From contig NC_052396.1 in NCBI RefSeq assembly GCF_009389715.1, positions 16,956,631 through 17,020,630 of the forward strand: a stretch of DNA of 64,000 bases, in the 5' to 3' direction. Shown in pieces: positions 2,002 through 46,399 of the stretch; position 1 is the first letter of the stretch; every line of letters begins with the position of its first letter. The notes beneath the pieces were generated by a model that had not been told where the DNA came from, did no database searches, and saw only the letters and a list, made by a program, of their open reading frames with translations. The translations under genes were made by a program, and so were the position numbers. Source of the DNA: Phoenix dactylifera (lineage: Eukaryota; Streptophyta; Magnoliopsida; Arecales; Arecaceae).

Positions 2002-3707
2002 ATAATGCAAGCCACTCTTTAGTTCTATGTAGCTAACTTTCCTCTAAATGATGGAAGCTTGTGACTCTTTTGAACCTTTCTTTATAGTAGTGAGTAGAAA
2101 ACTGCTGAATGGTGTGAGATTAACAAGTTGCATTTAGTTGCATCATTGATCTTGATTGTTAATCATATTTCCAATTTTGAGATGATTTCAACTGTTCCGT
2201 GGTTTTGTTTTTAATGCAACGTCCATGGTACGTAGCATTCCCTGACGCTTGCTCTATAACCTAAAGAGACACTTCTTTTTCACATCCACTATTAAAATTT
2301 TTAAGCAGAACCTTTCTAAAAAAGATCAAACAAAATAAATTATAAATGCAAAGTATTTTGATTTTTTATAATTTACTGCTTTTCTATAAATTCTGTATTC
2401 TGGAGAAATGCAATATTTTCTTTGGATGCACCCATTTGAGAGTGAGGATAAATTCTATTTCTTCTAGGAGTACATGCATATTATGAACATGAAGCAAATT
2501 ATTGATGGAAGTTCGGAGTAAGGAGTTCTTAACATCTTCCTCAAAATATATTCAAATCCCCATCATATATACAAGCGTAACATGTTAGAGAGCTACTTTG
2601 TGTTTGGGCTTCGTTTTCTTTGTTTTTTCCTCTTCCTCCTTCTTTTTATGAAGAAGGATACTCTTATCAAACAAAATTTTTATTAATCTAATAAATAAAA
2701 AGCATATGTCATGTTTATTATCGATTTTTTTCATCACATTTTTTTTTGAAATGAGTTGAGGATTATATATTGATTCAGATATTGCATATCACAACTTGTT
2801 TGCAAAGAACAAAGCTACTGAGTTGGGAATAAATATGAAGAAAGATAATTTTATCAAACAAAATTCTTATAATTATAATAAATAAAAAGCATATGTCATG
2901 TTTTTTGTCGATTTCCATCATTTTTCTTGTTTGGAAAGCGAGTTGAGAATCATATATATTTTTTTCTGAAACTGGGTCACAACTTTACTTTTATGAGGTG
3001 AAAGCTCGCTTCCTTTATATTAAATATAGCCCATACCGGGCATATATTATGCAAAAAGGACCTCATGAACTTGACAGTATTGACAATATAAAGCTTGTGG
3101 GTCATGGCTGTGGCTTGGAACGGGTCTGCCAAACTTCAGCTTTAAGAAAAGTTATAAAGCAAGCTTCATGTTAGCAAAAATCCAACTGTAATCTATTATA
3201 ACTGTAGTCAGTTTGAAGATTAGCTTAATAGTAACACCCAATAATGAAACAATGGTTAAAAACAATATCAATTCAAGGTGGTTTCTTTCCGTCTGATAGG
3301 ATGGATGGATATCAGTTTGGTTGGAATTTAGAGAAGGCAGAAGTGCTGAAAACAAATATGATTGCATGAAAGTATGATGTCATTTGGGGACTTGCTTGTA
3401 TGTACAAAAAAGAGAGGGTCCGGTGTACTTGAAGAGAGTAGGTTTTAAGTGGATCATCTAATAAACTATTAAGCTTCCTCTGTCTAATCAAATAATTTTA
3501 TCTGGCCAAGATGATGGATGTCTAAAAATATATATTTTCTCACAATCAGTCAAGAGTCAATGTTAAATAATAGTATGAAGCAAGTGACCAAGTCCAAGAA
3601 GATACTGATCAATTGTATCTTTCCCGTAAAAATGGAAGTTGTAGTTGTATATTAATATAAGAGAGATTTGGTGGAGCATTATATGTGATATGGTTAAATG
3701 AAAAAGC
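2002..3707. other. Intergenic stretch with a diverged direct repeat
   Basis: No gene is recognised. The one clear structure is a direct repeat of about 120 bp at 2649-2770 and 2836-2959. Both copies contain AAAAAGCATATGTCATGTTT and both end in an AGTTGAG(G/A)AT segment. The rest is AT-rich sequence without identifiable signals. Confidence 0.5.
2649..2959. repeat. Direct repeat, two ~120-bp copies
   Basis: Copy 1 (2649-2770) and copy 2 (2836-2959) share a TGAAGAA start, a TTATCAAACAAAATT segment, the 20-base core AAAAAGCATATGTCATGTTT, and an AGTTGAG-AT-ATATAT end. They differ by scattered substitutions and small indels. The 65-bp spacer is unrelated. This could be a local duplication or the ends of a small element; no target duplication was found. 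Confidence 0.55.
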
Positions 3708-4180: not shown

Positions 4181-5859
4181 AAAGTTCTATGATTTATCAT
4201 AGATGAGAGATGGTAGGGGGAGGGAGCGAGAGAGAGATTTTGGATAAACGAAAAAGTGCATAATCCTGCCTTCTTATGCAGAAATAAAGATGAATAAGAT
4301 AATAATAGATATAAAGGATTAACCATTGCAATATCACTTGTTAAAGGATTAACCATATGCTTTTTCTTTAGTTGTTCGTTTGTTGTTTCACAAGCCACTC
4401 GTTATTTGATAACTGATAATAATATAAATTTGCACTACCTCAATTAAATATTTAGCTGGAATTCTCCGCGCACTCACGTTCACATATATAGCTTTTGTAC
4501 GTAACTTCTCCAACTCCTTCTTACGTACCGTATTTTAGTGACTGCCCTTGTTGCTAGGCAAGCTTTTCTTTTCTTTATCTATAATAGCATAAGTTTCAAA
4601 TGTGATATAGAATTTTCTAACTCAGGTGAAGCAAAATTTGTTTGCGCTGTCTCATTCCATAAGATAATTACCCTCCTGATGAACTCTTCTCTCTTTCTAA
4701 TATTCACTTATGTTTACAACAGACAAGTAGCACTCACCATACATATATGAATAGCATAAATCAAAGATATATTACATTGAATTGCTACCAATTTTGATCC
4801 ATATTTTATTTACATCAAAGGAAAAACTACAACATATATACATCGTTTGTGGAATTAATTGACATTTTCATCTCACCACCAAAAGTTTTAATGAATTCCA
4901 TACATATCAAACAATAGAATGAGTTTAGTAATCAGTTCTCATAAACAAAAGATACCTCATAGCAAAATAAATCTAACTTTCATTTATTAATGGAAGCCCA
5001 TCCCTTTATTGCATGCTTCTTTCAGTTAAATATGTGGCCTGCATCTCATGTGCTAAGCACCAAATGTGCAGATAGCTTAATTTTGCTGATAACTTTTTTA
5101 ATGTTTTGTTGCCATAGAACAACTTTTTTAGCTATCCGATTACTTGTTGCCATTTAAGTGCATATAAATAAAACTACTTAAAAACTGTGCATGGGCAGTA
5201 TCTACTAAATAATGTGCGAGTCCCTGCATATATTTGTTATTTTAGTAAATACCTTAATTGATTTAAGTTTTTTTATTCTATATGACATGTCTGAACTAAA
5301 AGCTGAAAATATGAGGAGGAGAGGCATGTCGTTTGGATCACAAAGAGTACACTAATTACCATAGAAAGCAGTCGTATGGATGCCTCTTGAAATTGCGATT
5401 ACAGCTGCTAGCTATTTCCACAAAGCATATATGTACTATATACAGCACACTAACACCTCAATCCAGTAATTAAGGAAGTTTACCAAGCTTTAAGAGTGAA
5501 ATATCCGTCTCCACCATCCATCTCCAGCATAAACAATGCGCGAGCCTGCAGAATATATAAAGCCAAGAAGAAACTTAGTGATATCCAAACGCTGGCACAT
5601 AGCTTTCCTGAAAATTTAAACTCCAACAATCTCAGCGTAAATGACTATATTTAAAAGATGCTTAAATTAAGAGAAGAGGATAAGAGGACTGCACTTCCTC
5701 TTTAATTAGATCACATTTACGAGCACTACATTAGAAAACATGTAGTAGTCGTAGTAGTAGTAGTAATCGATATATAGAATAAAGTTATTTATTTATTTAT
5801 TTTTGGATGCTTTGATAGAGGTGCGGATTTGGAGGAAAGGAGGAGATCATTCGAATCTA
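4181..5859. other. Intergenic stretch, 3' flank of the DUF4408 gene
   Basis: AT-rich sequence with no recognised gene. A short (GTA)n run lies at about 5746-5763 and a TTTA repeat at about 5788-5800, just past the stop codon of the minus-strand gene. The right-hand part probably includes that gene's 3' UTR and terminator, but I see no decisive poly(A) signal. Confidence 0.45.
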
Positions 5860-6591
5860 CTAGTAGATGTGGCGAAGCCTCTCCAAGAAGCGGCGCTGCT
5901 CGGACTCCTGACGCTGGATCCGGAGATGGTCGTGGTGCTTCTTGATGAGCGTCTCGACGCGCAGGAACAGCTCGTCTTGACGCACCACCAGCACATCCCT
6001 CCTCCTCCAGCCCTCCTCCTTCTTGAACGTCTTCGACTTGCTCATCTCCCGCCTGGCCACCGCTTCCTCCGCCACGTTCTGCCGCCTCTCCCACGTGCCG
6101 CTCTTCCTCAACGCCGGCTTTGCCGGCAACCCGCCGCCCTCCATGACTGCCCTCCATATCCCGTCCAATGAATTGTTGCTGCCATCATCAGGGCTCGACG
6201 CCGCCGCCTCCGTCACGGACGGCTCCGGTGGATTGACGTGTTCCGGTGGCAGCGAGGACTTGAATTCTGGTGAACTGGCGGTGGAGGTGGTGGGGGAGGA
6301 AGGGACGTCGTACCAGGTCTCCGGCGAGTCAGGAGGAGGGGCAACAGGGACCTCGGGGTGGTGGGGCTGGTCGCCGTGGGGCTTGGCATCGGAGAGCTTC
6401 CAGATAGCAACGATGATGATCTGGATGACGATCCAGAGGCTGCAGAGTAGGAGGCCGAGGGAGGAGGCAACAGCGAGGCTGGCGAAGACGACAGCGGCGG
6501 CGAAGCCTATCAGGAGGAAAGCGGTTTTGGCCGACCAGATGGCCATCTCCAGCCCACTCTTCTTCTTCATGTTCCAGAACATATCAGCCAT
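5860..6591 (-). CDS. DUF4408/DUF761 membrane protein
   Basis: A 243-residue plant-specific protein of unknown function. The N-terminus (MADMFWNMKKK) leads into two adjacent hydrophobic segments at about residues 20-42 and 45-65, as in DUF4408. A Pro/Ser/Thr-rich, probably disordered linker follows. The basic C-terminus, about residues 206-238 (DELFLRVETLIKKHHDHLR), matches the DUF761 'cotton fibre expressed' tail, where an acidic-hydrophobic start leads into a basic helix. The gene has no intron. I chose the ATG at 6591 because its context (CCATGGCT) is better than that of an in-frame ATG five codons upstream at 6606, which abuts the GA repeat. Membrane location is inferred. Family members have been linked to stress and growth, but the role here is unknown. 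Confidence 0.85.
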   Translation of the reverse strand: MADMFWNMKKKSGLEMAIWSAKTAFLLIGFAAAVVFASLAVASSLGLLLCSLWIVIQIIIVAIWKLSDAKPHGDQPHHPEVPVAPPPDSPETWYDVPSSPTTSTASSPEFKSSLPPEHVNPPEPSVTEAAASSPDDGSNNSLDGIWRAVMEGGGLPAKPALRKSGTWERRQNVAEEAVARREMSKSKTFKKEEGWRRRDVLVVRQDELFLRVETLIKKHHDHLRIQRQESEQRRFLERLRHIY

Positions 6592-6602
6592 GGATAATGG
6601 CC

Positions 6603-6605
<3 letters not shown>

Positions 6606-6680
<75 letters not shown>
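6606..6680. repeat. Compound microsatellite (CT)n(TA)n
   Basis: A CT run (6606-6638) passes directly into a TA run (6639-6680). On the coding strand of the DUF4408 gene this is a TA-GA tract ending about 15 bases before the chosen start, so it probably lies in the 5' UTR or core promoter. It is likely to be length-polymorphic. Confidence 0.9.
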
Positions 6681-6683
<3 letters not shown>

Positions 6684-6903
6684 GATCGCACCAACAAATT
6701 CTACAGAAACAACAGGCTATCAGTAGAGGGGAAGGAGTGGATGGAAGGGGCCAAAGAGAAGAACAAAGAGAGGAAAGGATGGAAGAGAGATGAAAGAGAA
6801 GAGAGGATATGGTGGGGGGGGGCGGCGCGGGCTCAGGTCATTATCGGTGATTGAGAAGCTTTTCTTTTTTGCTGGTTGGGATCCAGGAGCGAGGAGATCG
6901 TGA

Positions 6904-6937
<34 letters not shown>

Positions 6938-6938
6938 G
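6904..6938. repeat. Compound microsatellite (TG)n(AG)n
   Basis: About nine TG units are followed by about seven GA units. It lies roughly 310 bp upstream of the DUF4408 start, in the presumed promoter. Confidence 0.85.
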
Positions 6939-6959
6939 AGGAGGTTGGTTCAAATGTCG

Positions 6960-9163
6960 GGGCCCCTGGGGGGCACAGCCTTATTTGCAGGATAGCCTAG
7001 GCTAAATTGGTATTTAAAAGGGAGCACAAGTAGTTGAAGGGAATGAGCCGTGGAGGCGAGTATTGAGCCCATTAGATACGTTTCGGGCGCCGGCAAACAA
7101 GATAGAGGTTTGGGGAGGTACTAGAGGATCATAGTTGTATCCTTTTTCTAAGTAAATCATCACAGTTGTATTCTTCGAGATAGGATTGCATCTTTCGCGC
7201 CAATCCACCGTTGAATCATTCTCTGCACAGATCTCAGTTGATTCTAATTTATTATTCATCCGTTTGCATAGATCTCAAAATAACCATGGGACGAACCAAC
7301 AATAGATTTGCATAGACAGTAGAATTATTTATGGCGATTAAGAAAACTAAATCCTTCTTCTCCTGAAAGATACAGCTCCCTTATTTATCCTTCGTACCAA
7401 AAAAAAGTTTCTCCACCCTTTGCACCTATCCAAAGTTGGATCATCAACTACTCGCTTTGAGAGTCATATAAATATATGGAAGTTTGGAGTGCTCAAAGAT
7501 TTGCGCATTAGGTGATCTAATAGTGGGTTGGTGCAAAGAAAGGTGAATTTTTTTTTTTTAATTTTTTTTGTGCGTAGGATACCAGTACTTGCTCACCATA
7601 CAAATGACAGCATTAAAATTATTAGCTGTCCAGCACCATATGACACGAGCCATTGCACATGCAATGTACGTGAGTGGATGTGATACCAAGGGAAGAAGCC
7701 ATAGTATTTTCTTAGAGCGAAATCGTGCTCATCCATGAATGTAGTAAGAGTAGTAATTGCCAAGACTCGTGATAGAGTCAAGGAGAAGAATTATGACTGA
7801 AATATGTTGACTTATGCAAAATACTTTGATTATTTATATAAAAAAAAGCCCCCACAAAATGAATTTTTTTGGCGGCCACATCTTTGGCAACTGTAGATGT
7901 ACTGCGCATGCAGACTATTTTAAGAGGCAAATATTAGTTTATTGTTATAAAAATTATCCTAAAATCTTATTTTCTTGTAAAAATGTCTGCTAAGCATAAT
8001 TTTTTAAAAAATAAAATCTTGCTGTCTTTGGAAAACATAAATCTAGCAAAATGAGAATGTGTAGTTATGCATCTTCATATGGACAGATATGTAAAATTTG
8101 ATGCATACTAATTTTTGCATCGATCCCTGTTCGTTTCTTGCACAGCATGACCTAGAGACTTTATAGGTGATATCATCTTAGGAAAATGCAGACAACAAAC
8201 TTAGATGGTTGTAGACCTCACCGTGCAAGCATTTCCCCATGGGCTTCCTCCTTTGGACAGGGGTTGCATCTTCCTTCGCACAAATCCACCATTAATTCAT
8301 GTAATGGTCTCTTCAAGATCTGTATAACAATATAAGAGGCAGATGATTGTAGAGTTTGAAGTGCATTGAGATTTATGCTGAATACAACCAAATGGTCGTC
8401 ATCATAAAAGAAAATCCATCATATACATACATAACACTCTTGGCGGATGAGCTGCTCATCACATCCACCATTCGGGCCCCACAACTCGATGCTATGAAAA
8501 TTTAATAAACAAGTTATAATTTATCATGCTTCCATATATATAATCTTCTTATTCCGATCCTCTCCAAATGAGTACCTGGCATAAGATTTTTTTACAAAAA
8601 ACCATGACAGGAAGAAATGATTCCTCGCACTATTGTACCGATTGCATGCGCTTTCCTTTTTCTATGAGAGCCGTGCGCAGAGGCCGCGGGGAGCGCAGTG
8701 GCCACCGGCATTGAGGCCAAGAGAGGGTTCCCACAATGTCGCTGGAGCCCCCTCGGTCATCCATCATGCATGTACCAGTACTTCAACAAAGTGGTGGGCC
8801 GGCTTCTCTCTTCTTAATTTCCTACTTTCTTTCCTTTCCTTTTTCCTCAGATTCTTCGTCAAAAAAAGGATCCGGGCCACTTTGGTGGCCACGCAATAAT
8901 TCATGGATGGCTGAAGGGTGCCTTAGGCTCCAAGGATGGTGCAGAGAGACATGGAAGACAAGGTTAGGTTGCAGGCTAATTAAGCAGGTCCCGGTTCAAT
9001 CATAAGCTTCCTCTGCTCTTTCTTTAGCTTTAAGACTAGTTCTAAGATGTTGGAACGAATAAATTTAATCCGTGGCTGCAACCATAATCAGAAACTGAAA
9101 GGGATGCATATATGCATTTCTTCGATCTCCAGTGGTGAAGTGGCGCGGTCACAAACAAAGACT
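6960..9163. other. Intergenic stretch, nothing recognised
   Basis: Mixed AT-rich DNA upstream of the DUF4408 gene. Open frames are short, overlap on both strands and show no domains. I see no transposon ends, tRNA or conserved motif. Confidence 0.45.
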
Positions 9164-9171
9164 TGCATGAT

Positions 9172-10486
9172 CAGGGGCGGCCCAATACATTTGGGGACCT
9201 TAGGCGAACTCATTAGAAGAGACCTTTTTTTTATTATTTAAATAATAATTTTTTAATAAGTATAAAAATATTTTAAAAATAATCAATTCTAAATTAATTA
9301 CTGGACTAAATAAAAATTAATTGGACCAAAATTTAATTAATAAACTAGTAACTAACTCACCTGCCGGTCCTGCCTCACTGCCTGTGCCTGGGAATGGGAT
9401 CAGTGGGAACTGGGCCAGCCAACCCGTGAAGTGGGAGTGTGGGACTGTGGCCTATGGCTGTGGGAACCGAGTCAACCGACCCATGAGGCCGTGACCGTGG
9501 GTGGGGGCGACTCGGAGTCGGACTGTCGGAGCAGCCGACTGCCGAGGACGGCGAGGAGAGCCGGGAGGCCTCGGTCGCCGCGGAGCCCGGAGGTCAGAGG
9601 AGCCGAGGACGGCGACTCGGCGAGGAGAGCTGGAGAGGAGAGGACGGGAGGCCGGAGCGAGGACCTCGGAGCCGAGGAGGAGGCAAGCAGGCAGCACGGA
9701 CAAAAGCGGAGGAGGAGGTTCGGAGGAGGACCAGGAGGTGGACCGTGGACTTTAGAGCAGACCGTCCGAGCGGTCGAGCGGAGCCGAAGCCGAAGGATGG
9801 GAGGAGGCTGAGGAGCCGAGGACGGCGGCGTCGGCGAGCCGGCGAGGAGAGCTAGAGAGGACTGAGAGCGGAGCTTAAAATCGTTTCTTTTGCGGTCTGC
9901 AAGCCGAGCTGCCGAATGCCGATTCTGCCGAGTGCCGAGAGTCGAGAACCAGAGAAGGTTCAGGCATTAAAAAGGCAGGCCGCAGCCGCAATCTAAACTA
10001 GATCCAATAAAAAATAGGGATGAATTTTTGAAAAGGGATAAGTACAATGGAATTCAAGATAAAAAAGAAATTAAGGCGGCAGAGAAGGGGGGAGAGAAGG
10101 GGGGAGCCGGGGAGGAAATGCCCGTTGGCTCGTTGCCCGTTGCTTGTCAACGTTGTCGTAGCCGGTAGCCGTTGCCCAGGGCCTACCGTAGCTACGTTCT
10201 TAGCTTGTGACGCCGGGGAGACGCCGAAGGGACGCACTGTAGCGGCTTACGGGTGGAGCTCGTAGCTATCGCCCAGTCCCCTCCCCGTCTCAGCCGTCTG
10301 CCAGACGCCACCGCCACCGCCCAGCCCCACCCCCAGCCCCCAGTGCCTTTCACATCCGTCGTCACCCACTCTCTAATTAAACAATAATAAAAAAAAAAAC
10401 GTGGCTGTCGTGCCTTGGTGGGGGCCTTTCCTGGGCCGGGGGCCTTAGGCGACCGCCTCGGTCGGCTAAGGCTCGAGCCGGCAGTG
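9172..10486. mobile_element. Non-autonomous hAT element, GC-rich interior
   Basis: The element is flanked by a perfect 8-bp target duplication, TGCATGAT, at 9164-9171 and 10487-10494, the duplication length of hAT transposons. The ends are imperfect inverted repeats: CAGGGGCGGCCC on the left and, reverse-complemented, CACTGCCGGCTC on the right (8 of 12). The subterminal words CCTTAGGCGA and CCTTAGCCGA add support. The 1315-bp interior has an AT-rich left arm, a very GC-rich purine-biased block at about 9480-9860 built of degenerate GCCGAGGACGGCGA-type repeats, and a second GC-rich right arm. It encodes no transposase, so movement would need a transposase supplied from elsewhere. Long open frames in the GC block are low-complexity Arg/Gly sequence and not called as genes. 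Confidence 0.8.
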
Positions 10487-17671: not shown

Positions 17672-18378
17672 ATGGACGAATCTGGCAAGAAAAACAAACC
17701 TTCGGTTCGATCCCTGTGGGTGGTCAAATCCGTGAAGAAACCACAGGATCAAGTTTCTGCGGCCGGTCAGGTTTCGTGGAAAGCTGTAGGAAAATCGCCA
17801 GAACCGGTTTCCAAAGAATCGCCGGAAATATCAGCTTCAGTTGCCGAGGAAGCGCCAGAAGTGGCTGGGACATCGCCGGCAAACTCTTTGATCAGTGTTC
17901 CACTGCCTTCCGGTTCGTCTTCGGGCGAATCGGATTCAGAGAAAGATGATGTACCGCCTGTGGCTGATCGGCAGAGGAAGAAGAAGGAGAAAAAGCTGGC
18001 GGTATATGCGATTCCCGAGCATCTGAAACGGCAGATCGAGATGGATGCAGTGCCTGAAGTTCTTCATGAAACTCTCTCGCCATCAAATTATGGTGCCTAT
18101 TTTGCCGTTCTGCTCTACGCAGAGGACTTCTACATTGAGGTCAGAGATACGTCCTAATTAAAAAAAATATCATGTTGTTCTTCACTTAATTGGATATGAG
18201 GTGTTCATTCATGCTCAGTTTTTGAACAGAAGATCAAACGTAATTTTTTTAAAAAAAATATTGCGTTTAATTGCTAAGATTGCAGTGTAATTTTAGAATT
18301 TATAGTTGCTAAATATTTGGTTAAACTATTCAGTAACATTTTAGGAAGCAACGGGAATCCAGATGAACGTGCAGAATG

Positions 18379-18409
<31 letters not shown>

Positions 18410-21400
18410 ATAAAGGGGGAGGCAAAGCCAACCGGCCTTTATTAGCAAAGAAAAGTTTACATAAACTATTTATAAAAAAATTGCAAGAAAACAAATTACA
18501 AAAGAACAATAAAAATCTTTTACAAAAAATAGTGGTATGTAAGTAGACATGTTAAATTATTCAACAAGCAAATCAATCTCCTAAGTAATTTGAAAGATCA
18601 ATTATATAAGCTTTGTATCCCTTGTATGAGTTAGTTTTCTTCTAAAAGATAGATCAACATCTCTTAACGTGCGACGCCAATGTTGTGAGATTATTCTAAT
18701 TTTGTAGATAAAAATCAAGCAGCTTCTCTGAACACAGATGTTTCCAAGTTAACAAGATTTTCTGCAGCAAAACACAATAAATAGAACTTGATTTTTTTAA
18801 GAAAATTCGAGCATTTTGCTCCTTCTATATTTTCCAACAAATAGCAGCAATCAAATGATCCGCAGCTTTTTTCATTAGTTGTTGGAATTTTTTATTTCTC
18901 CATTTAGTCCACAAATCACTAGTGCTGGTAGGCCATCCTCTCAGATTTAGCTGCATTTTAATTGTTATCCATAAACTACGGACAAATGGGCACCTAATTA
19001 GTAGATGTGATTTATAAATGTGTAGGATGGACATCATGGAACTGGAAATATCTTTAATTATTATAAGCACATTATAGGAGAAGTTTGAAGGCTCGCCTGA
19101 CGAGGACCAAAGAGGTTAAAACAAATTATTCCCTGAAGAGAAAAAAATGAAGATGTCTTAGCTTGCAAATTGTTAGTGACACCTCCCTGAAGGTGTTCTT
19201 GCAGCTCCTACGAGTGCTGCATATATTAAAACATAACTATATCCAAAAATACATAACCAATATGAAATTATCTTGCAAGCCAGATAAATAAGAACAATCG
19301 AATGGTTACTGCTATCGGCTTCTTGGATTGCCAATTTCTTTTGGGCAATCTAAGATAATAGAATGGTTATCGAACAAAAATAAATCTTATATAGAAGGTC
19401 GTGCTACATGGAGTAGATCGACTGTGCCTACCCAACATCTAGAACAAACAACAAACAATAAAAACAGATAAAAGGTGTTGGAAGAAAAATAATTATTGGA
19501 AACAAAAATATTTAATTAAAAAAAATTGTGCCAAGGCTTTCTCACACTTCTCACCTCACTCTCCTTCTCATTCTTTTCTCACACCACTCTAAAAGAGGCC
19601 CCAGAAATCCTTTTAAATAGAGTTCATGTGAATCGGATGTTTGATTTCTACTCAAATTCAAAAACTAACACCCACTAAAAGAAAAAGTTTGGGCGAGGCA
19701 CACTCCATTTATCCTCAGCACATCAAATTTCTCTAGCCAAACTAAGCTTTGGTAGCCGAACCGCATCTTCTAAGTGGCCCATACCAAGTATGGATGAGAT
19801 TGCTGGACCACAACAATCAAGCCATACAGGAAAGGCAGTGTGGAAACGATATATTTCGATCTGTGGTGCGTCATTAAAAGATTTAAATGCCTATACAGAG
19901 TAGTTGCCACTAGACCTTGAATACATAGCACAAACCACTAAAATCAACTCAGAAGATGGCAAATATTTTTTCTTTCCCTTTACAACTGCTCATGAGCTAT
20001 GTGATATTCTGAAATCCTAAGTCTTGGATATTGAATTTAGTTCGTTTTGCATCATTTTATTACCATGAGCAACTTATATGCATTTACTATGACCAGAAAT
20101 GGACCAATTTCCAGTTGTATAGAGTACCTCTGGAGCTGGATAACAAAAGGTGGAAGAAGGTAACGAAGAAGAAGAATAGCTGCAAGAGTGCTTGGAATGA
20201 TAAGAAAACATATGTGTCATTCGAAATCACTTCCATTCCTGAGAGACGACCATATCTATTATCAAGGGACTATGTCTTTGTGCGACGATCAGGAAAGAAG
20301 ACCAGATTTGAGGTTAGTATCTATAATTTGGAAATGGATTGTTTAAGATCAGTTCAACCTTGCACGTTTATAATCACATTTGGATTGTAATTTTGTGTTC
20401 CTAGAAGTAACACGGCATGGATATACTCTGAAATTCTCACCAACTACAAGAAGATTTAGTATTAAGAAAAAGCAAAAGCAGAATTTTAACCCGGAATCTT
20501 CATTTCCTCAAAAAAAAAAAAAAGAAAAAAAAAAGCAATCTTCATCTATGCAATGACATCATATGCTCAATTCTTTTATTATAACTAAATTCATCCCATC
20601 ATTTTGGTGAGCGTTGGAGATTACTCACCGCAAGACAACAGAAGAAAATTATAGAACAAGCAAAACCAAGTCTTAGATTCCTGATATGTTCTATCGACAA
20701 ACAAGCTGTAAAATAAAATAAAAAAAATAAGCATATCAAACTTTTTGGGTCATTTCATTTTTTTTCTTGAGGTAAAATTCCTTTGAAGGACATAATTTTT
20801 CATACTTTTGAACCAGGGAAGAGTGATTGGGGTGGTAAAGAGTACTCACGTATTGACCGAGTTTGGAAATGATCTTCTCTTACAGTATTCTCCATCATAC
20901 AAGTATGATGTTAAGTTTTCCTTCAATAGAACCTGTTTAAAGAGATCTCACCAGGCTGTGGAAGCTGCACTAGCTCCTTCGTTTCATCATGTGCTTTTCC
21001 CAAGTTGCCACCCAAGAACCGCAGAGATCTCTCTACCATCTGCAACTTTTTTGAATCAACGCCTTGGTGTTCATCAAATCTCAGCAATCCACAAAATTAT
21101 ACGGCTCAAAGGGCCTCCCCCTTATCTCATAAATGGACCACCTTCTGTAACACAGAATAATTCTCTCTCCAAAGCTGGCACTACCATTACAGAAGCAATC
21201 CTCGAAATTTACTTCCACATGGATACCAGCCGCATATTGGTGTGCTCTCCTAAAAACCACACCTGCGATACACTCATCAGTTGCTTGAACAAAAGAATCC
21301 CAGATTCGGATCTGTTTCGGGCCAATGCTAGTTTTCGGGAGGTTGAAGATGTGCCAGATGATGTCTTCCCGCTGTGCTCGCATGATGGCGAATGCTTCTC

Positions 21401-21755
21401 CAGTCCTCCACTCTCTGTTCTCCAGAAGTTCAGAGTGATAGTTTCAACTCTTATGACTTGTTTCAGGCTTCGAGACAATGGCATCAGCCCTGGCTATTTC
21501 TCTCATATTTTCATGGTGGATGCTTCTTCAGCCACCGAACCTGATGCAATGGTGGCACTGGCAAACTTTGTAACAGATGAGACAGCAGTTGTGATAGCAG
21601 GTTCGCGAACCAAGTATGCAGATAGAGTGCGTTCCGACATGGCTCGAAGAAATGGTTTGAAGAGATCATACTTCCGTAGACTGATGGAGAGCGAGCCATA
21701 CTCGAGCAATGATCCGCTATGTGTTTGCAACTTGGATGAGGAGAGCGAGAACTAA
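17672..21755 (+). CDS. SDE3/MOV10-like protein with degenerate helicase motifs
   Basis: Three exons, 17672-18139, 20097-20312 and 20817-21755, join in frame at GT-AG junctions to give 540 residues. The order matches plant SDE3, the SF1 RNA helicase of RNA silencing: a charged N-terminus, LLYAEDFYIE|KWTNFQLY across the first junction, ERRPYLLSRDYVFV, then a half-helicase. Q-motif-like LNQRLGVHQISAI is at about 307-319 and motif Ia-like SRILVCSPKN at about 366-375. The Walker A site reads GPPSVTQNN (about 335) without the GKT lysine. The DEAG box is VDASSATEP (about 464), and motif III AGDPKQLGP is AGSRTKYAD (about 489). The protein ends soon after, lacking motifs IV-VI. All frames are open, so it may be a non-catalytic paralogue rather than a dead copy. 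ATP hydrolysis looks unlikely. Confidence 0.78.
18391..19080 (-). mobile_element. LINE 3' fragment inside intron 1 of the SDE3-like gene
   Basis: On the minus strand, 19070-18825 encodes a zinc-binding LINE tail (HLLIRCPFVRSLW, AADHLIAAICWK). The sequence then runs to a plant L1-like 3' end: AATAAAGGCCGGTTGGCTTT, followed by CCTCCCCCTTTATAATAAAT and an AAT(A)-type tail near 18391. It opposes the host gene's direction and accounts for part of the 1957-bp intron. Its left and right limits are approximate and no target duplication was identified. Confidence 0.6.
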
Positions 21756-25266: not shown

Positions 25267-25304
25267 CAAATTCTTTTTGCACCCATTTTGACTATAAGTC
25301 AGAC

Positions 25305-25570
25305 CTACCGTAATATAGTTTTTAAGTTGAAACTATTGAACAACTTACTGTACAATTTGAGTTGTAGAGATGAGCTACCACAATATAATTTTGATTTAAA
25401 ACTATCGAGCACAATTGAAGTTGCAGATATGACCTACCACAATATAACTCTGAGTTGAAACTATCACGCAACTTACTATATAATTTGAGATGCAAACATC
25501 ACCTACTGCAATATAATTCTGAGTTGAAACTATCGAGCAATTTACTATATAATTTGAGTTGTAGACATCC
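25305..25570. repeat. ~69-bp tandem repeat, about four copies
   Basis: The units start at about 25305, 25375, 25434 and 25503. Each reads roughly CTACCACAATATAATTCTGA, then GTTGAAACTATCGAGCAAC, then TTACTATATAATTTGAGTTG and a short A/G-rich end. Units differ by substitutions, and the second is about 10 bp shorter. The array lies between a TRIM and a LINE insertion. Confidence 0.75.
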
Positions 25571-25753: not shown

Positions 25754-27024
25754 ACCGACCCAGGGGAGGGGAGATGGGATGTGGATCTGATACGTGAGGC
25801 CTTTGGGGAGCAGTTGGTGGAGAGGATTTTGGCTTTACCGATACCGATCCGGGAGGAGCCAGATAGATTGGTATGGTTGCCGACAGGTCGGGCGAGGGTA
25901 CGGACCAGGGATGTCCACGCTTGGGCCAGTAGGGAGCCTGATAGGCGGATTGACGGTGGCTGAATATGGAGGATGAGGGTGCACCCCAGAGTGGCGCTCT
26001 TTCTTTGGAAGGTGGCCTAGGGCTGCCTTCCGACCAGGAGTGTGTTGGCTAGGCGGGGGATGAGGTTGGATCTACTTTGCGAGAGGTGCCTCGATGCTGA
26101 GGAGACTATTAGCCATGTACTGCTTCGATGCCCTATTGCTCTGCAGTGTTGGAGACATGCATCTACGTTGCTTCCTCCGCGGTGGGAGACGTTGGAGGAT
26201 ATGCTTCGGTACCTGCGTGAGTCTACGCGGAGGCCGAGTTCTGCTGAGACAGGTACTATAGTGGCTTACTTAGCCTATCATATTTGGTTGGATAGGAACG
26301 ATCGCGTGTTCGAGGGCGAGCGATCCTTTCCTCGAGTTGTGATTGAGAGAGCCCTACGGCAGGCGGCGGAGGCATCTATGATGGCCTCATCGTATCCACC
26401 CGAGAGGGCCAGGGATATCTGGGGTACCTGTATTGCTGTCTCAGCGTCCAGGTTTCGATGTTTTTCTTGGGTACCCCCACCCCCTGGTTATCTTAAGGTG
26501 AATTTCGATGGTGGCATGGCAGAGGATGGCGCCTCGGGGGGCGTGGGCTTTGTGATCAGGGATCATGTAGGCAGTCTTGTAGCTGCTGGAGGACGGAGTA
26601 CACCGGGTACGACTATCGTGGGAGCGGAGGTGCGGGCAGCCTGGGAGGGCATTTTGTATGCGAGACGGGTGTTGGGGGCCGATTGCCTCTGCCTCGAGGG
26701 TGACTCCTCCACGGTGATTGATTGGATACGAGGTGTTGATACATATGGGGATGGCCACCCCCTGATACGGGATACGCGTAGATTGGTGCGGGAGCTGACC
26801 TTCTGTCAGATATCTCATGTATATCGGGAGGCGAACAGTGCAGCAGACTACTGGGTCGCCTCCTATGTTGCTCAGCACTCTAGGGAGTTTCTCTGGACTA
26901 GCTTAGAGTGCATCCCACACTCCTTATTTTGTTTAGTTTCCTTTAATATGTCAGGTTGTATTCACGTTAGAGGTACTTGAAATGAAATACCGCTTTGACC
27001 AAAAAAAAAAAAAAAAAAAAAAAA
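25754..27024 (+). mobile_element. 5'-truncated RNase H LINE with target duplication
   Basis: The insertion is bounded by a 14-bp duplication, AAAAGCCGTTTGAT, at 25740-25753 and 27025-27038, and ends in a poly(A) tract of about 28 A from 27001. It encodes the C-terminal part of an L1-type ORF2. The frame from 26042 (312 residues) has a zinc-binding motif CERC...SHVLLRC (CX2C-X8-H-X4-C, residues 13-30). It then has an RNase H domain with the expected acidic residues (VNFDGG, GAEVRAAW, LEGDSS) and a final HVYREANSAAD. The same frame extends upstream (VALFLWKVA) across a single stop at 26018. The intact duplication and long tail suggest a fairly recent insertion. The reverse transcriptase was lost by 5' truncation. 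Confidence 0.9.
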
Positions 27025-28355: not shown

Positions 28356-29039
28356 TCAGCGAGGCTGCTCGTCCTCCCTCCTGCCCGCCGCCGGCGAGCC
28401 CGACAAGGAGGCGAGGAGGTTGAGGTGGCCCTGCACCATGGGGAGGTAGTTCCCGACCCTCGCCGCCGACGCGTCCCCGACGGGCTGCGCGGCGGCGGCG
28501 AAGCTCCCGGAGAGCGACGCCGGCGGCACGACCATCTCCGGCGCCGCGAAGCTCCACAGCTGCCCGAAGTCCTGCCGGGCCGACACGGCCCAGAAACCGC
28601 CCATCGGCCCGAGTCCGACACCGCCGTTTTTGGCGGCGGAGTCGTCGTCGTCGTCGTCGGCCTGGAGGCGCTTGCCGAGGATGAAGGGAGCGGGGGCGAG
28701 GTGCTGGGGTTTGTGGTCGAGAGGGGGGGCGGAGGAGGAGGCGGAGGCGAAGGAGGAGTGACGGAGGGTCGAGAAGGAGGCTGGGGTGGTGCCGGTTCCG
28801 GTGGCGGCGATGATGGAGGGCTCGGCCTGGCGGAGGAGCCACTCGATGGTCTGGCCGTCGGACTTGTGCCCGAGCTCGCGGGTCAGCTGGAAGACCCGGG
28901 CGGCGCAGACAATCGGCATCCGGATCCGGCGGCCGCGCCCATCCACCTTGCTGTGCCGGTCTTTCGAGGTCGCCTTCTTCACCGCCAGCGGGACTCCGTT
29001 GCCGTTGCCGTTACCGTTACCGTTGCTCCCCGCCGTCAT
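28356..29039 (-). CDS. TCP7: Class I TCP transcription factor, TCP7/TCP21-like
   Basis: An intronless 227-residue protein. The basic helix-loop-helix TCP domain spans about residues 21-80: [20 protein letters not shown] (basic region), [20 protein letters not shown] and [20 protein letters not shown]. The Arabidopsis TCP7/TCP21 tail is also conserved: [39 protein letters not shown] and RREDEQPR. Class I TCPs bind GTGGGNCC-type sites and regulate cell proliferation, growth and, for TCP21 (CHE), the clock gene CCA1. The start at 29039 is followed by a Gly-Asn repeat encoded by a (GTAACG/GGCAAC)-type run. An upstream in-frame ATG at 29156 would add 39 Leu/Ser-rich residues read through a CT repeat, which I reject. 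Expression and target genes cannot be read from here. Confidence 0.95.
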
Positions 29040-29054
29040 CTGTTGGCGATGAGC

Positions 29055-29079
29055 TGAGAGAGAGAGAGAGAGAGAGAGA
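29055..29079. repeat. (GA)n microsatellite in the TCP 5' leader
   Basis: About 12 GA units lie 16 bases upstream of the TCP start. On the coding strand this is a CT tract, a common plant 5' UTR or core-promoter feature. Confidence 0.85.
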
Positions 29080-30110
29080 AAGAGGCGATGAGTTGGAGGA
29101 GAGCAAGGCCTGATGATGGAGAGGCAGGAGGGGAGTGGAGACAGAGGTAAGAGCACAGGGACGGTGAAGGGAATCAGTCTATCAAGTTACAGTCACTCTC
29201 GGTGAGCGAGCGAGAGCTGTGTAGAGCCTGATATTTGATTGATAAGGAGAAGTGGTGGTCTGAGTCTGGGTGCGAGCGGCGAGTGGTAGGTAAAGATGGA
29301 TATCCTGTCACTGTCGATGTCGAGTGAGGGGCTCCGTGGTCCAGGCCGGTTACAGGCCCACCAAGGCCCAATTAACATTTAACACAACTGCCCTCCCCTC
29401 CATGGACCGACCACTTCAATTCCTTCCCCGGAGGCGGCAATACGGTAAAAACTCAGCCATCAGTCGCATGAAAGTAGCGGAGGCGGTGAAATACCGTCAT
29501 CTCTTGAAGCTGAAGTTGAATGGGCGAAGAAAGTATATATATATATATATAGTCCATATGCGACGGGCTTGAGTGAAACCAACAAAATCAGAAAAGATAA
29601 TGCAAAAGATAGGACATAAATGCGTGGTCTTCCCAGTAGACGTTCACGAGGAGACGACGAGACTCCGAAGAGGGAAAGGGCAGGATTGTTAGATGCTCCT
29701 TTCACGCATGGGTTTAGAGACGATGTACAAATTTAAGAGAATGCCATTCATTTCCGGCCAAACTGAGTAATTTTTCCAGTTTCGGTACTGCATGCAGAGG
29801 CTGGTAGTTGAGAAAGAACGGGAGGAATTGGATAAGTCGTAGCAGGAGCGCATTAAATAATGCAAGCCAGGAGAGAGAGCGAGAGAGAGAATGTGAACTC
29901 CTATAGGACGGGAGAAATAGGCCGTTGTGGACTGACACGTGGGTAAAAAATCCACGCTATCTCATTTGTTCGCAGTAAATTCAAAAAAAAAAAAAAAAAA
30001 AACCGCCAGTAGGGGCACGTACGAAGTGTCGGAGCCTTTAAAGAAAAGGGTTCGGATTGAGGCCATGCGGAGAAGCTGATGTCCTTTTTTTCCCAGGCTA
30101 ATCTGACGCC
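29080..30110. other. Upstream region of the TCP gene
   Basis: This holds the presumed TCP promoter. A (TA)n run lies at 29534-29551, a GA run at about 29871-29890 and an A tract of about 20 at 29982-30002. No further gene is supported. Confidence 0.45.
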
Positions 30111-32197: not shown

Positions 32198-33971
32198 TCA
32201 CGCCACCGCCATGTGATCGTCAGGGACGTAATTCTTCCAGCACCAATGCTTCTTCCAGACCACATTCATCTCCTCGATGGGCACATTCTTTGTCTCCGGC
32301 AGTAGCAGGACGATGAAGAGCGTCATGGCGATCACGAAGGCGGCGAAGAGCAAGAAGAGGCCGAACTTGAGGTGGCAGAGCGCCAAGAGGAAGAACTGCG
32401 CTACGAGGAACGTCCATAAGAAGTTGACGGAGACGACGATGGACTGCCCCGCCGACCGGATCTCCAGCGGGAAGATCTCGCTGGGCACCAGCCACCCGAG
32501 CGGCCCCCAGGACCACGCGAACGCCGCCACGTAGGTGCAGATGAGCACCAGCACCAAGTCGGCGTACGGCTTCGACATGGCCCCCGTCCCGTCCGCGCCG
32601 AATTTGACCCCGAGGATGACGGCGATCGCTACCTGGCTGAGAAGCATCTGCGCGCCGCCCTCGATGAAGAGGAACCTGCGGCCGAACCTGTCCACCGTCG
32701 CGATGGACACGAGGGTCGCCCCGACGTTGACGAGGCCGGTGATGACGGCCGACATGAGCGACGCGTTGTCCCCGAAGCCGATGGTCTTGAAGAGCACCGG
32801 CGCGTAGAACATGATGATGTTGATGCCGGTGAGCTGCTGGAATCCCGGGATGAAGAACGCCATCACGAGCTGCGGGCGGTAGTGCTTCTGGAGGATGTTC
32901 TTCCAGGGGTGCCGGACCTGCCCGGCCGCCTGGCTCGCCTCGACCATGTCCTGCAGCTCCTCGCCGACGTCGTCGGTCCCCCGCGCCTTCTGGAGAATCC
33001 TCCTGGCCGTTTCGAGCTTGCCTCGCTCGATCAGGGAGTTGGGGGTGTCGGGCAGGAAGAGCGCGCCGATGGTCATGATGCCGGCGGGAACCGCAGCGAG
33101 CGCGAGGGAGATGCGCCACCCGTACCCACCCTTGATCTTGTTGGTGCCGTAGTTGACGAGGTTCGCGATCAGGATGCCGATGGTCGTCGCAAGCTGGAAG
33201 CCGATGTTGAGAGCTCCTCGGAGCTTCGGCGGGGCCATCTCGGAGAGATAGAGGGGGACGGCCTGGTTCGCGAAGCCGATACCGACGCCGAGCAGGACGC
33301 GGCCGATGATGAGCATCGCCACGTTTACGGCGGCACCGTTCAGAGCAGAGCCGATGAGGAAGGCCGCCCCGCCGCACAGCATGGAGGCCTTCCGTCCCAG
33401 CACTCTGGTCACCGTCGATGCGAAGAAGGTGGAGATGAGCCCCGCGATGTACAGGGAGGAGGTGAACGCGGTTAGCAGCTGGCTGTCGAACGAGCACCAC
33501 TGGTTCTTGGATGTCCCGGCATTTTTCTGATCCTCGTACACCGAAGGGAAGAACTTCTCCAGGAAAACATTCATGGAAGTTACACCTCCTGCATGTATAT
33601 CAAATATCAAATGAACGTTAATATATACGTACAATTATGTACAATATTACCATCATGTCGCAAAATCAAACTTTAAAACGAAATATATATAATAAATCCG
33701 AATTAGTGAGTGATTATTTCGATCAAGAGCATAAATGTGTGGACGTGGGGGATTATTGACACCGGTCACGAAGAAAGCTCAAACTATGAAACGAGTCATA
33801 ATTCTTGAAGCCAAAATGAGAGAGAGATGAGTAATCACCAGATACGCCGATGTCATATCCGAAGATGAGCCCACCGGTGGCGGCGATCATGCAGGTGATG
33901 ATCACGAACAAGGTCACCTTCCCATTGTAGTCCTTAACCTCCCCCTGTGCGACGAACCCTCCACCAGCCAT
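32198..33971 (-). CDS. Monosaccharide:proton symporter, STP/MST family
   Basis: Two exons, 33971-33839 and 33588-32198, join in frame (DIGVSG|GVTSMN) to give 507 residues, the usual STP length. This is a 12-helix major facilitator sugar porter that would import hexoses with protons across the plasma membrane. Diagnostic motifs in order: [14 protein letters not shown] (helix 1), [78 protein letters not shown] and [12 protein letters not shown]. The ATG at 33971 ([10 protein letters not shown]) fits the conserved MAGGG start of the family; an in-frame ATG five codons earlier is less likely. Exon 2 is very GC-rich, giving long antisense open frames that are not genes. Sugar specificity and the closest STP member cannot be settled by eye. 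Confidence 0.95.
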
Positions 33972-43230: not shown

Positions 43231-45789
43231 TTATTCCCTCACATCCTCCCCAATGTCATGGACACTTTGTATGAATGGAACATATCCCCCTTCAATGAGT
43301 ATCCTCACATCCAAAGAAGTAGATTCATCTTTGTATAGCTTGTGTACTGCCTTCTTCATCAATCGGAAGTTCTTAGAATCAGCAGAAGGAAAGCTTTCCT
43401 TTCGAAGAACATCTTTCAAAAGCTCAAAAGCTTTAACCGAGTTTCCTTTCAAAATCAAACAGTTTACCAGCAACAAATAGACAGAAGTATCTAGCTGAAA
43501 ATCCCTCTCCTTCATTTCATTGTAATAGATAAGAGCTACATCTGCATCACCACACTTGCATAGACCATGGACAAGAGCCATGTAACTCATCTGGTTTGGA
43601 AGACATCCTTTCTCCCTCATTTCATTCCACAAAGAAAGAGCATCTTCAGCTCTTCCAATATTGCACAAGCCATCAATTAAGCTTGTGTATGTGACTACCG
43701 TGGGTGACCTTGCATCATCAATCATCTTAGCAAAGCAAGCAAGTGCATTGTCAATCCTGTCAGCTTTGCACCAACCATCAATCATCAGATTGTAGGTAAC
43801 TATAGAAGGCACAAGTCCCTTCTCTAACATTTCATCTAGAATTTCCTGTGCTGCATTCATTCTACCAGCCTTGCAAAATCCATTAATCAAAATATTATGA
43901 GCAACCACATCTGGTAAATAACAATTTGAAGATATACCACGGAAGAGGCTCAGTGCTTTGTCTACCTCTCCAATCTTGCACATTCCATCAATAGCCGCAG
44001 AGTAAGCAACCATGTCAGGAAGAAAACCCACCTTAACCATGTCATCCAAAAAACCAGAAGCTTCTGCAACTTTTCCATTTTGGCAGAGCTGCTGGACCAT
44101 CATGGTGCAATGCTTTATCCATGGCACATATCCTTGACATCGCATCTCGCTAAGCAACTCAAGGGTACCTGATAAGTCCCTTCTTTTGCAAAGACAGTAA
44201 AATATGGAATTGTAAGTGAACTCTGTGGGTGTAAATCCAAATTCCTTCATTTTTCTCAAAAGCTCATAACTTTCCTCCAACCTATCCACATTACACAGCT
44301 CGCTGATCAAATTATTGTACATCAGAATTTTCCCTTTACAACCTACTTTGATCATATCATTCAAAAGAACTAAAGCGACATCCAGTTTCTGGATCTTGCA
44401 TAAACCGCAGATCACAATATTAAAAGAATCAGCATTTGGGCAAACAGGTTTCTTGATCTGAAATAGGGTTTCAGTTGCAGCACCCAATTCACTAAATGCA
44501 TACTCATCTACTTCCACTTGGGAGGCCTGTGAGCTTTGCGATTCCATCATTGCCCTTAGTAGCGTGTGAGCTTTGTCTACATCACCATGATTAACTAGCC
44601 CATCTAGAACTGCATTGTAAAGAGAGACCAAGCTACCCAAATTCAACATCTCCAAATTTTCCTCAAGCAACTGGTTTGCATTGACTAAGTCTCCTTCCCC
44701 GCAGAGTGTTGAGATCATCTTCTTGATTAACCGAGCATCAGGATATGTACAATTGTCCTTCATCTCCATATACAAACCAAAAGCCCTCATGAGCTCTTTC
44801 CGCTCACAAAGCCCTTCAATCAAAACACTGTAAAGCGCCAAATCCCCACGAAAACCTGAACCATTCATCTTCTCAAACATCTCGAGCGCCTTGTCCACTC
44901 TCCCCTGCCTCGAAAAGCCATGGACCAGGACGTGAAATGTCTTCTCGCTCAGCATCATCCCAAAATCCTCCATCCGCTGGATCAATTCGCATGCTCTGTC
45001 AACCTTTCCCCACTTGCAAAATGCGACAATCAAGACCGTCAAAACATGCCCATCAACCCACCTGTTGCCATTCATCCTGTTGAAGATTTCCAACGCCTCC
45101 TCCAACTTCCCGGCATTGCAGTATGTCTGCAAGACCGATGTAAGGGTGTATTTGTCAGGCTCCCATCCGCGACCAACCACCATCTCCTGGAATCTTGATT
45201 CCACTGCTTCGACCCGACCGGCCTTAGCCAAGGCCTCGAGCAAACAGTTATAAGTGTATGAATTTGGAACGCAATTCAAATCCCCGGCACGGTCGAAGAC
45301 CAAATTGGCCTCCTCAATCAAGCCCTGATTACCGAGGCACCTGATCAAGAACCCCAAGGCTCCGGGCGTCATCGGGCAGCGAACCGAAACCACCTCCGCC
45401 GCCAGGGCTTTCAGCTGGGCACGTTGGCGGGCCCGGGCGAGGATGGAGGCCATGGCATTGTAGGTGTAGCAGTTGTGGTGGAACCCGTTCTGCCACGAGG
45501 CCCACCGGAAGAACTTCTGCGCGGCGCTCCACCCTTCGAGGTCCTTGAGGACGGTCTCGACCGTCTCGGGTGTCAGTCTGCGGCCGAGGTGGCTGAGCTC
45601 CTCGCTCCTTTCTCGGAGGCTGGGTGGATGGGAGAATAGGTCGAGCAGTTGGTGGACTAGTTGAATGCTCGGCAGGAAAGCATCGATCGGGGCGGAGTCG
45701 GAGTAGAAATTAGGGTTAAATGGGAGCGAAGGAATGAGTAGTTTGGGAGAGGAAAAGCTGCTGGTCGTTCTGATTGCTCTTAAAGCCAT
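43231..45789 (-). CDS. P-class pentatricopeptide repeat protein
   Basis: An intronless 852-residue protein with a Ser/Arg-rich N-terminus (MALRAIRTTSSFSSPKLL) that looks like an organelle targeting peptide, probably mitochondrial. From about residue 120 to 780 it is built of tandem 35-residue PPR units. Clear ones include NSYTYNCLLEALAKAGRVEA, DKYTLTSVLQTYCNAGKLEE, DVVAHNILINGFCKAGRMNA and TVVTYTSLIDGLCNIGRAED, near 20 in all. No E, DYW or SMR domain follows, so it is a plain P-class member, which typically binds an organelle RNA sequence-specifically and aids its stability, splicing or translation. The target could be predicted from residues 5 and 35 of each repeat. A stretch near residues 415-445 (SQSSQASQVEVDEYAF) departs from the repeat pattern. 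Confidence 0.95.
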   Translation of the reverse strand: MALRAIRTTSSFSSPKLLIPSLPFNPNFYSDSAPIDAFLPSIQLVHQLLDLFSHPPSLRERSEELSHLGRRLTPETVETVLKDLEGWSAAQKFFRWASWQNGFHHNCYTYNAMASILARARQRAQLKALAAEVVSVRCPMTPGALGFLIRCLGNQGLIEEANLVFDRAGDLNCVPNSYTYNCLLEALAKAGRVEAVESRFQEMVVGRGWEPDKYTLTSVLQTYCNAGKLEEALEIFNRMNGNRWVDGHVLTVLIVAFCKWGKVDRACELIQRMEDFGMMLSEKTFHVLVHGFSRQGRVDKALEMFEKMNGSGFRGDLALYSVLIEGLCERKELMRAFGLYMEMKDNCTYPDARLIKKMISTLCGEGDLVNANQLLEENLEMLNLGSLVSLYNAVLDGLVNHGDVDKAHTLLRAMMESQSSQASQVEVDEYAFSELGAATETLFQIKKPVCPNADSFNIVICGLCKIQKLDVALVLLNDMIKVGCKGKILMYNNLISELCNVDRLEESYELLRKMKEFGFTPTEFTYNSIFYCLCKRRDLSGTLELLSEMRCQGYVPWIKHCTMMVQQLCQNGKVAEASGFLDDMVKVGFLPDMVAYSAAIDGMCKIGEVDKALSLFRGISSNCYLPDVVAHNILINGFCKAGRMNAAQEILDEMLEKGLVPSIVTYNLMIDGWCKADRIDNALACFAKMIDDARSPTVVTYTSLIDGLCNIGRAEDALSLWNEMREKGCLPNQMSYMALVHGLCKCGDADVALIYYNEMKERDFQLDTSVYLLLVNCLILKGNSVKAFELLKDVLRKESFPSADSKNFRLMKKAVHKLYKDESTSLDVRILIEGGYVPFIQSVHDIGEDVRE

Positions 45790-46399
45790 GATAAGATGGA
45801 GGGTAGCGAGAGAAGATATCCAATCAAATTTTGAAGCAAGCGATGGTTCGGCGAGAAGGGTTCCTCGGGGCGGTGCAGAGAGCCGCCATTAGCGGAGTTT
45901 GGGGAAGAACGAAGAGGCACAAAAATGTTACGGAATAAATAACGATCCAAAAAGCTGCTGCTCTTTCAACTTCCAAGCTGGGCGATGGCATGCATTCCAC
46001 AGGCAGGCACCTAGATCGGTCGCGGTGACCGGGAGGATATAATATACTGTTGCCGCTGAGGTGGCTAGAATACCCACATGGCGGCATTTTACTAGTCCGG
46101 TGTACCGCTAGGCTGGTACACCAGGGTAGGATGTAATTTTTCCTAAGGACGGTCGATGACCGTTCCCATCCAAACCATCGACTATCCGAATCTATTTAGT
46201 TTTGCTGGATAGCAGATGGCGATAGAACAGATGAGTTCCTCAGTCGTTACAAATGGAAGTAGGGTAGATCTACCCATAGCCCATGTGGAATAAAGAATAC
46301 TGTAACACATTCTTTTCAGTTGACTATAGATTAATTATGATGTTTGTGATTGGGTTTGATTGAATTCAGACCTTTAGTTTGGGCATATATGGGAGATTA
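45790..46399. other. 5' flank of the PPR gene
   Basis: Presumed promoter and leader of the minus-strand PPR gene. No separate gene found. Confidence 0.5.

Follow-up and report, generated by a model that had tools for sequence, protein, structure and literature searches.

A half-length SDE3/MOV10-like gene of Phoenix dactylifera, probably a stable non-catalytic relative of the helicase

Gene structure and relationship to SDE3

The window analysed here, a stretch of 64,000 nucleotides of the Phoenix dactylifera genome (C5:16956631-17020630; contig NC_052396.1), carries a three-exon gene for a half-length relative of SDE3/MOV10, Upf1-like superfamily 1 (SF1) helicases with roles in RNA silencing and in the control of retroelements. 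We consider it likely that this gene belongs to a stable, non-catalytic "pseudo-helicase" branch of the family with at least two open-frame members in the genome, a branch that is probably old. As a reading of the window made from its sequence only had proposed, the three exons join in phase 0 into an open frame of 540 codons that ends at 21755 without an internal stop, a frame that none of 2000 Markov sequences of equal composition retained (mean, 26 stops).

A protein search of the genome (773,078,369 bases in 2391 contigs) with the window protein gave at least nine pieces at four or more places, namely the window gene itself, a second half-length gene on C125, an SDE3 gene with intact motifs on C30 and a decayed SDE3 copy on C141 (Table 1). 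Intron borders of the first three were set by hand at GT/AG sites in the genomic sequence. The introns of the window gene follow ...EDFYIE and ...KKTRFE, those of the C125 gene ...EDFYLE and ...AGPFK, and in both genes they share alignment position and phase with the first two introns of the C30 SDE3 (after ...EEVHLE and ...SRPYQ, both phase 0), which independently supports the exon borders at 18139/20097 and 20312/20817 and indicates descent from an intron-bearing SDE3-type gene rather than a processed copy. The acceptor at 20097 is further supported by the residues KW at the start of exon 2, which recur in the C125 copy. In all column counts below, the C30 model omits the first residue of exon 2, which leaves intron site, phase and motif columns unaffected.

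Residues 108-534 of the window protein align with residues 213-617 of AtSDE3, for which a provisional sequence was used, at 31% identity over 436 positions (E 2e-68). With the intact SDE3 on C30, 384 aligned codons give 35% identity, so that the original description of a protein closely following plant SDE3 was too strong. The alignment to AtSDE3 takes in what remains of exon 1 after residue 107; residues 1-107, rich in Ser, Lys, Val and Pro, are probably disordered. The MOV-10 beta-barrel domain of Pfam scores 33.6 bits on the spliced protein (cut-off 23.6) and 17.7 bits on the frame of exon 2 alone, and the domain therefore spans the second junction. A sequence search of the Protein Data Bank (PDB) with the window protein (E up to 1) returned an unrelated lipase besides five UPF1 sequences, and in the corresponding list of 23 sequences for AtSDE3 (E up to 1e-5) none was named MOV10 or SDE3. 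No relatives of the window protein were found in viral and prokaryotic contig collections, a result that says nothing about plants.

Table 1. The half-length gene, its replaced motifs and its relatives in the same genome (window positions unless a contig is named)
Feature	Position	Strand	Remarks
Exon 1	17672..18139	+	residues 1-156; donor GAG|GTCAGA; site and phase as in same-genome SDE3 and C125 copy
Intron 1	18140..20096	+	phase 0
Exon 2	20097..20312	+	residues 157-228; KW at exon start also in C125 copy
Intron 2	20313..20816	+	phase 0
Exon 3	20817..21755	+	residues 229-540 and stop; RecA1-like lobe, end near RecA1/RecA2 border
MOV-10 beta-barrel domain	20199..20918	+	residues 191-262, split by intron 2; Pfam PF21634
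Former motif I (Walker A)	21135..21179	+	GPPGTGKT replaced by GPPSVTQN plus 7-residue insert; lysine gone; insert also in C125 copy
Motif Ia	21243..21257	+	CAPSN replaced by CSPKN
Former motif II (Walker B/DEAG)	21516..21542	+	DEAGQASEP replaced by VDASSATEP; identical in C125 copy
Former motif III	21600..21623	+	GDPRQLGP replaced by GSRTKYAD
Window gene	C5		three pieces of the genome search
Second half-length gene	C125		three pieces; 53% identical to window protein over 416 codons
SDE3, motifs intact	C30		two pieces
Decayed SDE3 copy	C141:336500-346000, about 5530-8140 within that stretch	-	one piece; stops and frame breaks

Replacement of the helicase motifs

Alignment to SDE3 confirms that the Walker A lysine, the DEAG box and the core of motif III are all altered, as the sequence-only reading had noticed. 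Of 30 motif columns, the window protein and the C125 protein each share 10 with the SDE3 of the same genome and AtSDE3 shares 28, while outside the motifs the shared columns number 123, 127 and 228 of 354, respectively. A similar comparison was made against AtSDE3 with PDB chain 2xzo_A, which we take to be human UPF1. UPF1, more distantly related but active, retains 25 of 30 motif columns and 35 of 106 others, and the window protein 11 of 30 and 39 of 106. Judged by these columns, catalytic constraint is absent and the remaining region is conserved as in an active relative. Counted by eye, motif II is kept between the window and C125 copies at all nine positions and motif III at two of eight, which leaves room for a new role that the rewritten motif II may have taken on.

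A second copy with the same kind of replacements, and the selection on both

With the C125 protein as query, the genome search gave at least ten pieces, all at these four places. The C125 model protein is 794 residues long. Its extended Ser/Pro-rich N-terminus shows, by eye, a unit of about 63 residues repeated three times in near-identical form (2407-3618 in the extracted stretch). The seven-residue insert sits where it does in the window protein, motif I reads GPLSETRD, motif Ia CAPRN, motif II the identical VDASSATEP and motif III GSSNDIPA, and the C125 protein ends five alignment positions before the window protein, within an exon that SDE3 reads through. The two half-length copies also agree at 70 aligned columns against a residue common to both SDE3s. 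The substitutions are hence not unique to the window copy, and the motif changes and the truncation would most simply be ancestral to both genes.

Between these two paralogues of one genome, nonsynonymous divergence (dN) over 416 codons is 0.38-0.40 and synonymous divergence (dS) 1.25-1.91 (NG86, LWL85 and maximum likelihood). Bootstrapping of their ratio omega gave a median of 0.30 (0.22-0.41) with LWL85, for which 396 of 400 runs yielded a value, and of 0.21 (0.11-0.31) with NG86, for which 379 of 400 did and the other 21 were saturated; the largest omega was 0.47, so that all 775 runs with a value, of 800, stayed below 0.5. The window and C125 copies have diverged under purifying selection. 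The dN of the two half-length copies to SDE3 is nearly equal (0.708 and 0.712, NG86), which means that neither has sped up. The average omega, below 0.5 over two branches, suggests that constraint acted on both copies through most of their history. The earlier proposal of a selected non-catalytic gene rather than random decay, for which a dN/dS near 1 would have spoken against selection, is thus supported by the shared replacements and by a ratio of about 0.2-0.3.

Weighing the alternatives

Several observations weigh against the reading of the gene as a stable non-catalytic branch. The AAA_11 profile of the RecA1 lobe reaches 20.9 bits on the window protein, under the Pfam cut-off of 27, and the RecA1 fold is for this reason deduced from the collinear 31% BLAST alignment across the lobe; an AlphaFold2 single-sequence model of exon 3 alone failed (predicted local distance difference test score, pLDDT, 34.6). 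Codon-usage scoring, trained on a single pentatricopeptide repeat (PPR) gene, was weak: it favoured the coding frame of exon 1 (60.1 versus 38.0 for the runner-up), did not pick that of exon 2 (2.1 versus 10.4 for another frame) and scored exon 3 at 45.4 in the coding frame versus 50.0 on the minus strand. The dS between the half-length copies is near saturation, the support comes from the genomic sequence of one genome with two paralogues, and the AtSDE3 sequence is provisional, although its 62% identity with the same-genome SDE3, over 797 positions, supports it. Finally, of the 63 columns at which AtSDE3 and NAM7 (PDB 8rd3_A) agree, the window protein has kept 10 of 26 within the motifs versus 19 of 37 outside (Fisher p 0.44); the motifs thus disappeared no faster than the remaining invariant columns, as if a special protection had been lifted rather than the motifs targeted.

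The gene could instead be a decaying SDE3 duplicate, its frame still open by chance or for want of time since its death, and such a pseudogene would likewise lose catalytic residues and half of the protein and might well fall under the AAA_11 cut-off. We regard this as very unlikely. A recently dead helicase would keep its motifs better than their surroundings, and here the motifs are at background; the decayed C141 copy, by contrast, has many stops and yet a still readable GPPGTGKT. When the coding sequence was evolved neutrally, with no changes other than substitutions, up to the point where 19 of 30 motif residues differed, this took at least 0.19 substitutions per site, and all 500 runs had acquired at least seven stops, so that none kept the frame open. 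Shorter neutral evolution is more forgiving (400 runs; 22% still open at 0.02 substitutions per site and 3% at 0.05), so that a very recent death of the window gene, over the final few percent of divergence, would be compatible with its open frame. The window gene has no stop inside its coding sequence, and a pseudogene would also have to share its insert, motif II, truncation relative to SDE3 and nearly identical end with a C125 gene from which it is separated by a low dN/dS. Less probable still is a full helicase that receives its second lobe from another transcript by trans-splicing or from unrecognised downstream exons. The protein does end near the lobe border, and PMC3213143 describes how the Caenorhabditis elegans eri-6/7 mRNA arises by trans-splicing of the pre-mRNAs of two genes. 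However, the in-frame stops of the two copies are no more than five residues apart in the alignment, and a second lobe would leave motifs I-III as dead as before. The stop before motifs IV-VI that had been noted earlier was borne out by searches for the missing half, among them the proposed comparison with full-length SDE3, which uncovered no convincing lobe in the window. Besides the gene, a tblastn search of the window with AtSDE3 (E up to 20) gave five weak matches, between 14 and 55 residues in length and with E values from 2 to 15, and the second lobe of the same-genome SDE3 gave a single one of 29 residues at 9324-9410 (+ strand), 38% identical to the start of that lobe (E 0.056; E 2.0 with AtSDE3). 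It lies 8 kb upstream of the gene, and the second-lobe matches in the window are probably due to chance. On C125, a match 1.9 kb downstream of exon 3 lies in a 55-codon open stretch (E 0.19 with AtSDE3), but it disappears when the same-genome second lobe is searched against 138.5 kb (E up to 10), which gives two others (E 5.9 and 6.5). Of at least 37 matches to AAA_12, the profile of RecA2 with motifs IV-VI, that were scored in the genome, none falls in the window or on C125, and those on C5 come no closer than about 490 kb.

Age and possible mode of action of the half-helicase

For the non-catalytic branch that we favour, a pointer to its age comes from the columns at which the same-genome SDE3 and AtSDE3 differ. 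The window protein matches the former at 23, the latter at 20 and neither at 85 of them, and the C125 protein has corresponding counts of 27, 19 and 85. The lack of a clear preference for either SDE3 suggests that the branch left SDE3 before the monocot-eudicot split, though this is only a pointer from one provisional sequence without an outgroup.

The protein would fold as a unit of barrel and RecA1 lobe, would not hydrolyse ATP and would function by binding. It may serve as a scaffold for RNA or for SDE3-type partners, or it may interfere with the intact same-genome SDE3 by competition. In PMC3475670, MOV10 with mutated helicase motifs is described as still co-precipitating with L1 ribonucleoproteins, and L1 restriction as lost in all motif mutants except those of Ia and V, from which we gather that SDE3/MOV10 proteins can, in some settings but not all, bind independently of their motor function. 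A special case of the preferred reading is a dominant-interfering partner that takes over the RNA or protein contacts of SDE3 and thereby damps silencing. It fits the presence of an intact-motif SDE3 in the same genome and the fact that the aligning parts are the barrel and the RecA1 region, but the window protein lacks both an AGO-hook and a clear counterpart of the SDE3 N-terminal region, and we think it unlikely. For the window protein, an AGO-hook route is in any case unlikely because there is no GW or WG pair anywhere in it and because the SDE3 AGO-hook is, according to PMC10991848, confined to some angiosperm families, with Asteraceae and Brassicaceae named. A further reading, less likely than not, is an ancient clade of one-lobed pseudo-helicases that derives from SDE3, predates the monocot-eudicot split and regulates RNA silencing or the handling of antiviral RNA by binding alone, with VDASSATEP as a new interaction surface.

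Relation to known systems

With SDE3/MOV10 the window protein shares the MOV-10 beta-barrel, a collinear alignment through the RecA1 region (31-35% identity) and the first two intron sites with their phases, and it differs from them in lacking the Walker A lysine, the DE of motif II, motif III, a recognisable RecA2 lobe and a clear SDE3 N-terminal region. Its loss of catalytic residues in an otherwise collinear homologue and the purifying selection on its coding frame (omega 0.2-0.3 between the two copies) are two of the features by which a pseudohelicase is recognised. Yeast Utp25 is a pseudohelicase of helicase ancestry with motifs lost or dispensable, but, according to PMC9539457, it is a DEAD-box relative of which both domains align with eIF4A, whereas the window protein is an SF1 relative with one lobe. 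Deinococcus PriA is reportedly another such pseudohelicase (PMC4504706). ERI-6/7 of C. elegans resembles the window gene as a MOV10/SDE3 homologue spread over two genes (PMC3213143); in contrast, the window gene has no convincing second half and its motifs I-III are replaced. No inactive or half-length plant SDE3 was found among the titles and abstracts listed in searches of open-licence literature, and the passages of PMC3827086 consulted contain nothing on SF1 or SDE3.

Which functions of SDE3/MOV10 require the motor is, in our reading, unsettled. If the interpretation holds, a natural, selected, motorless and one-lobed member would offer a direct genetic way to part RNA or partner binding from unwinding. 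It would also enlarge the small set of known pseudohelicases, a word that three papers of the open-licence literature searched use. Automatic annotation would probably label such a gene an RNA helicase, and surveys of silencing genes could miscount it.

Neighbourhood of the gene

To compare the regions around the two half-length genes, six window proteins were searched (E up to 1e-4) in 138.5 kb of C125 that reach from about 62 kb before its half-length gene to about 65 kb beyond it, and a TCP transcription factor alone matched. Its gene lies downstream of both half-helicase genes on the opposite strand (window 28359-29186, - strand; C125 about 363.0-364.0 kb, - strand), and this shared position and orientation suggests duplicated blocks. 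The dS of the TCP pair (0.23-0.54, four methods) is far under that of the half-helicase pair, which may be older than the block or faster evolving.

A Pfam scan covered 18 of the 72 window open frames of at least 100 codons, or shorter pieces near the gene, and Rfam and tRNA scans of the window gave no matches. Among the open frames are one of 885 codons with many PPR repeats (43234-45888, - strand) and one for a sugar transporter (32201-33634, - strand; Sugar_tr, 406 bits). A 319-codon frame with zf-RVT and the RNase H-like RVT_3 domain (26021-26977, + strand) probably belongs to an element of the long interspersed nuclear element type, and a fragment with an integrase end and a retroviral SH3-like domain (60026-60661, + strand) probably to a copia-type element. 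An imperfect tandem array with a period of 69 bases lies at 25302-25568.
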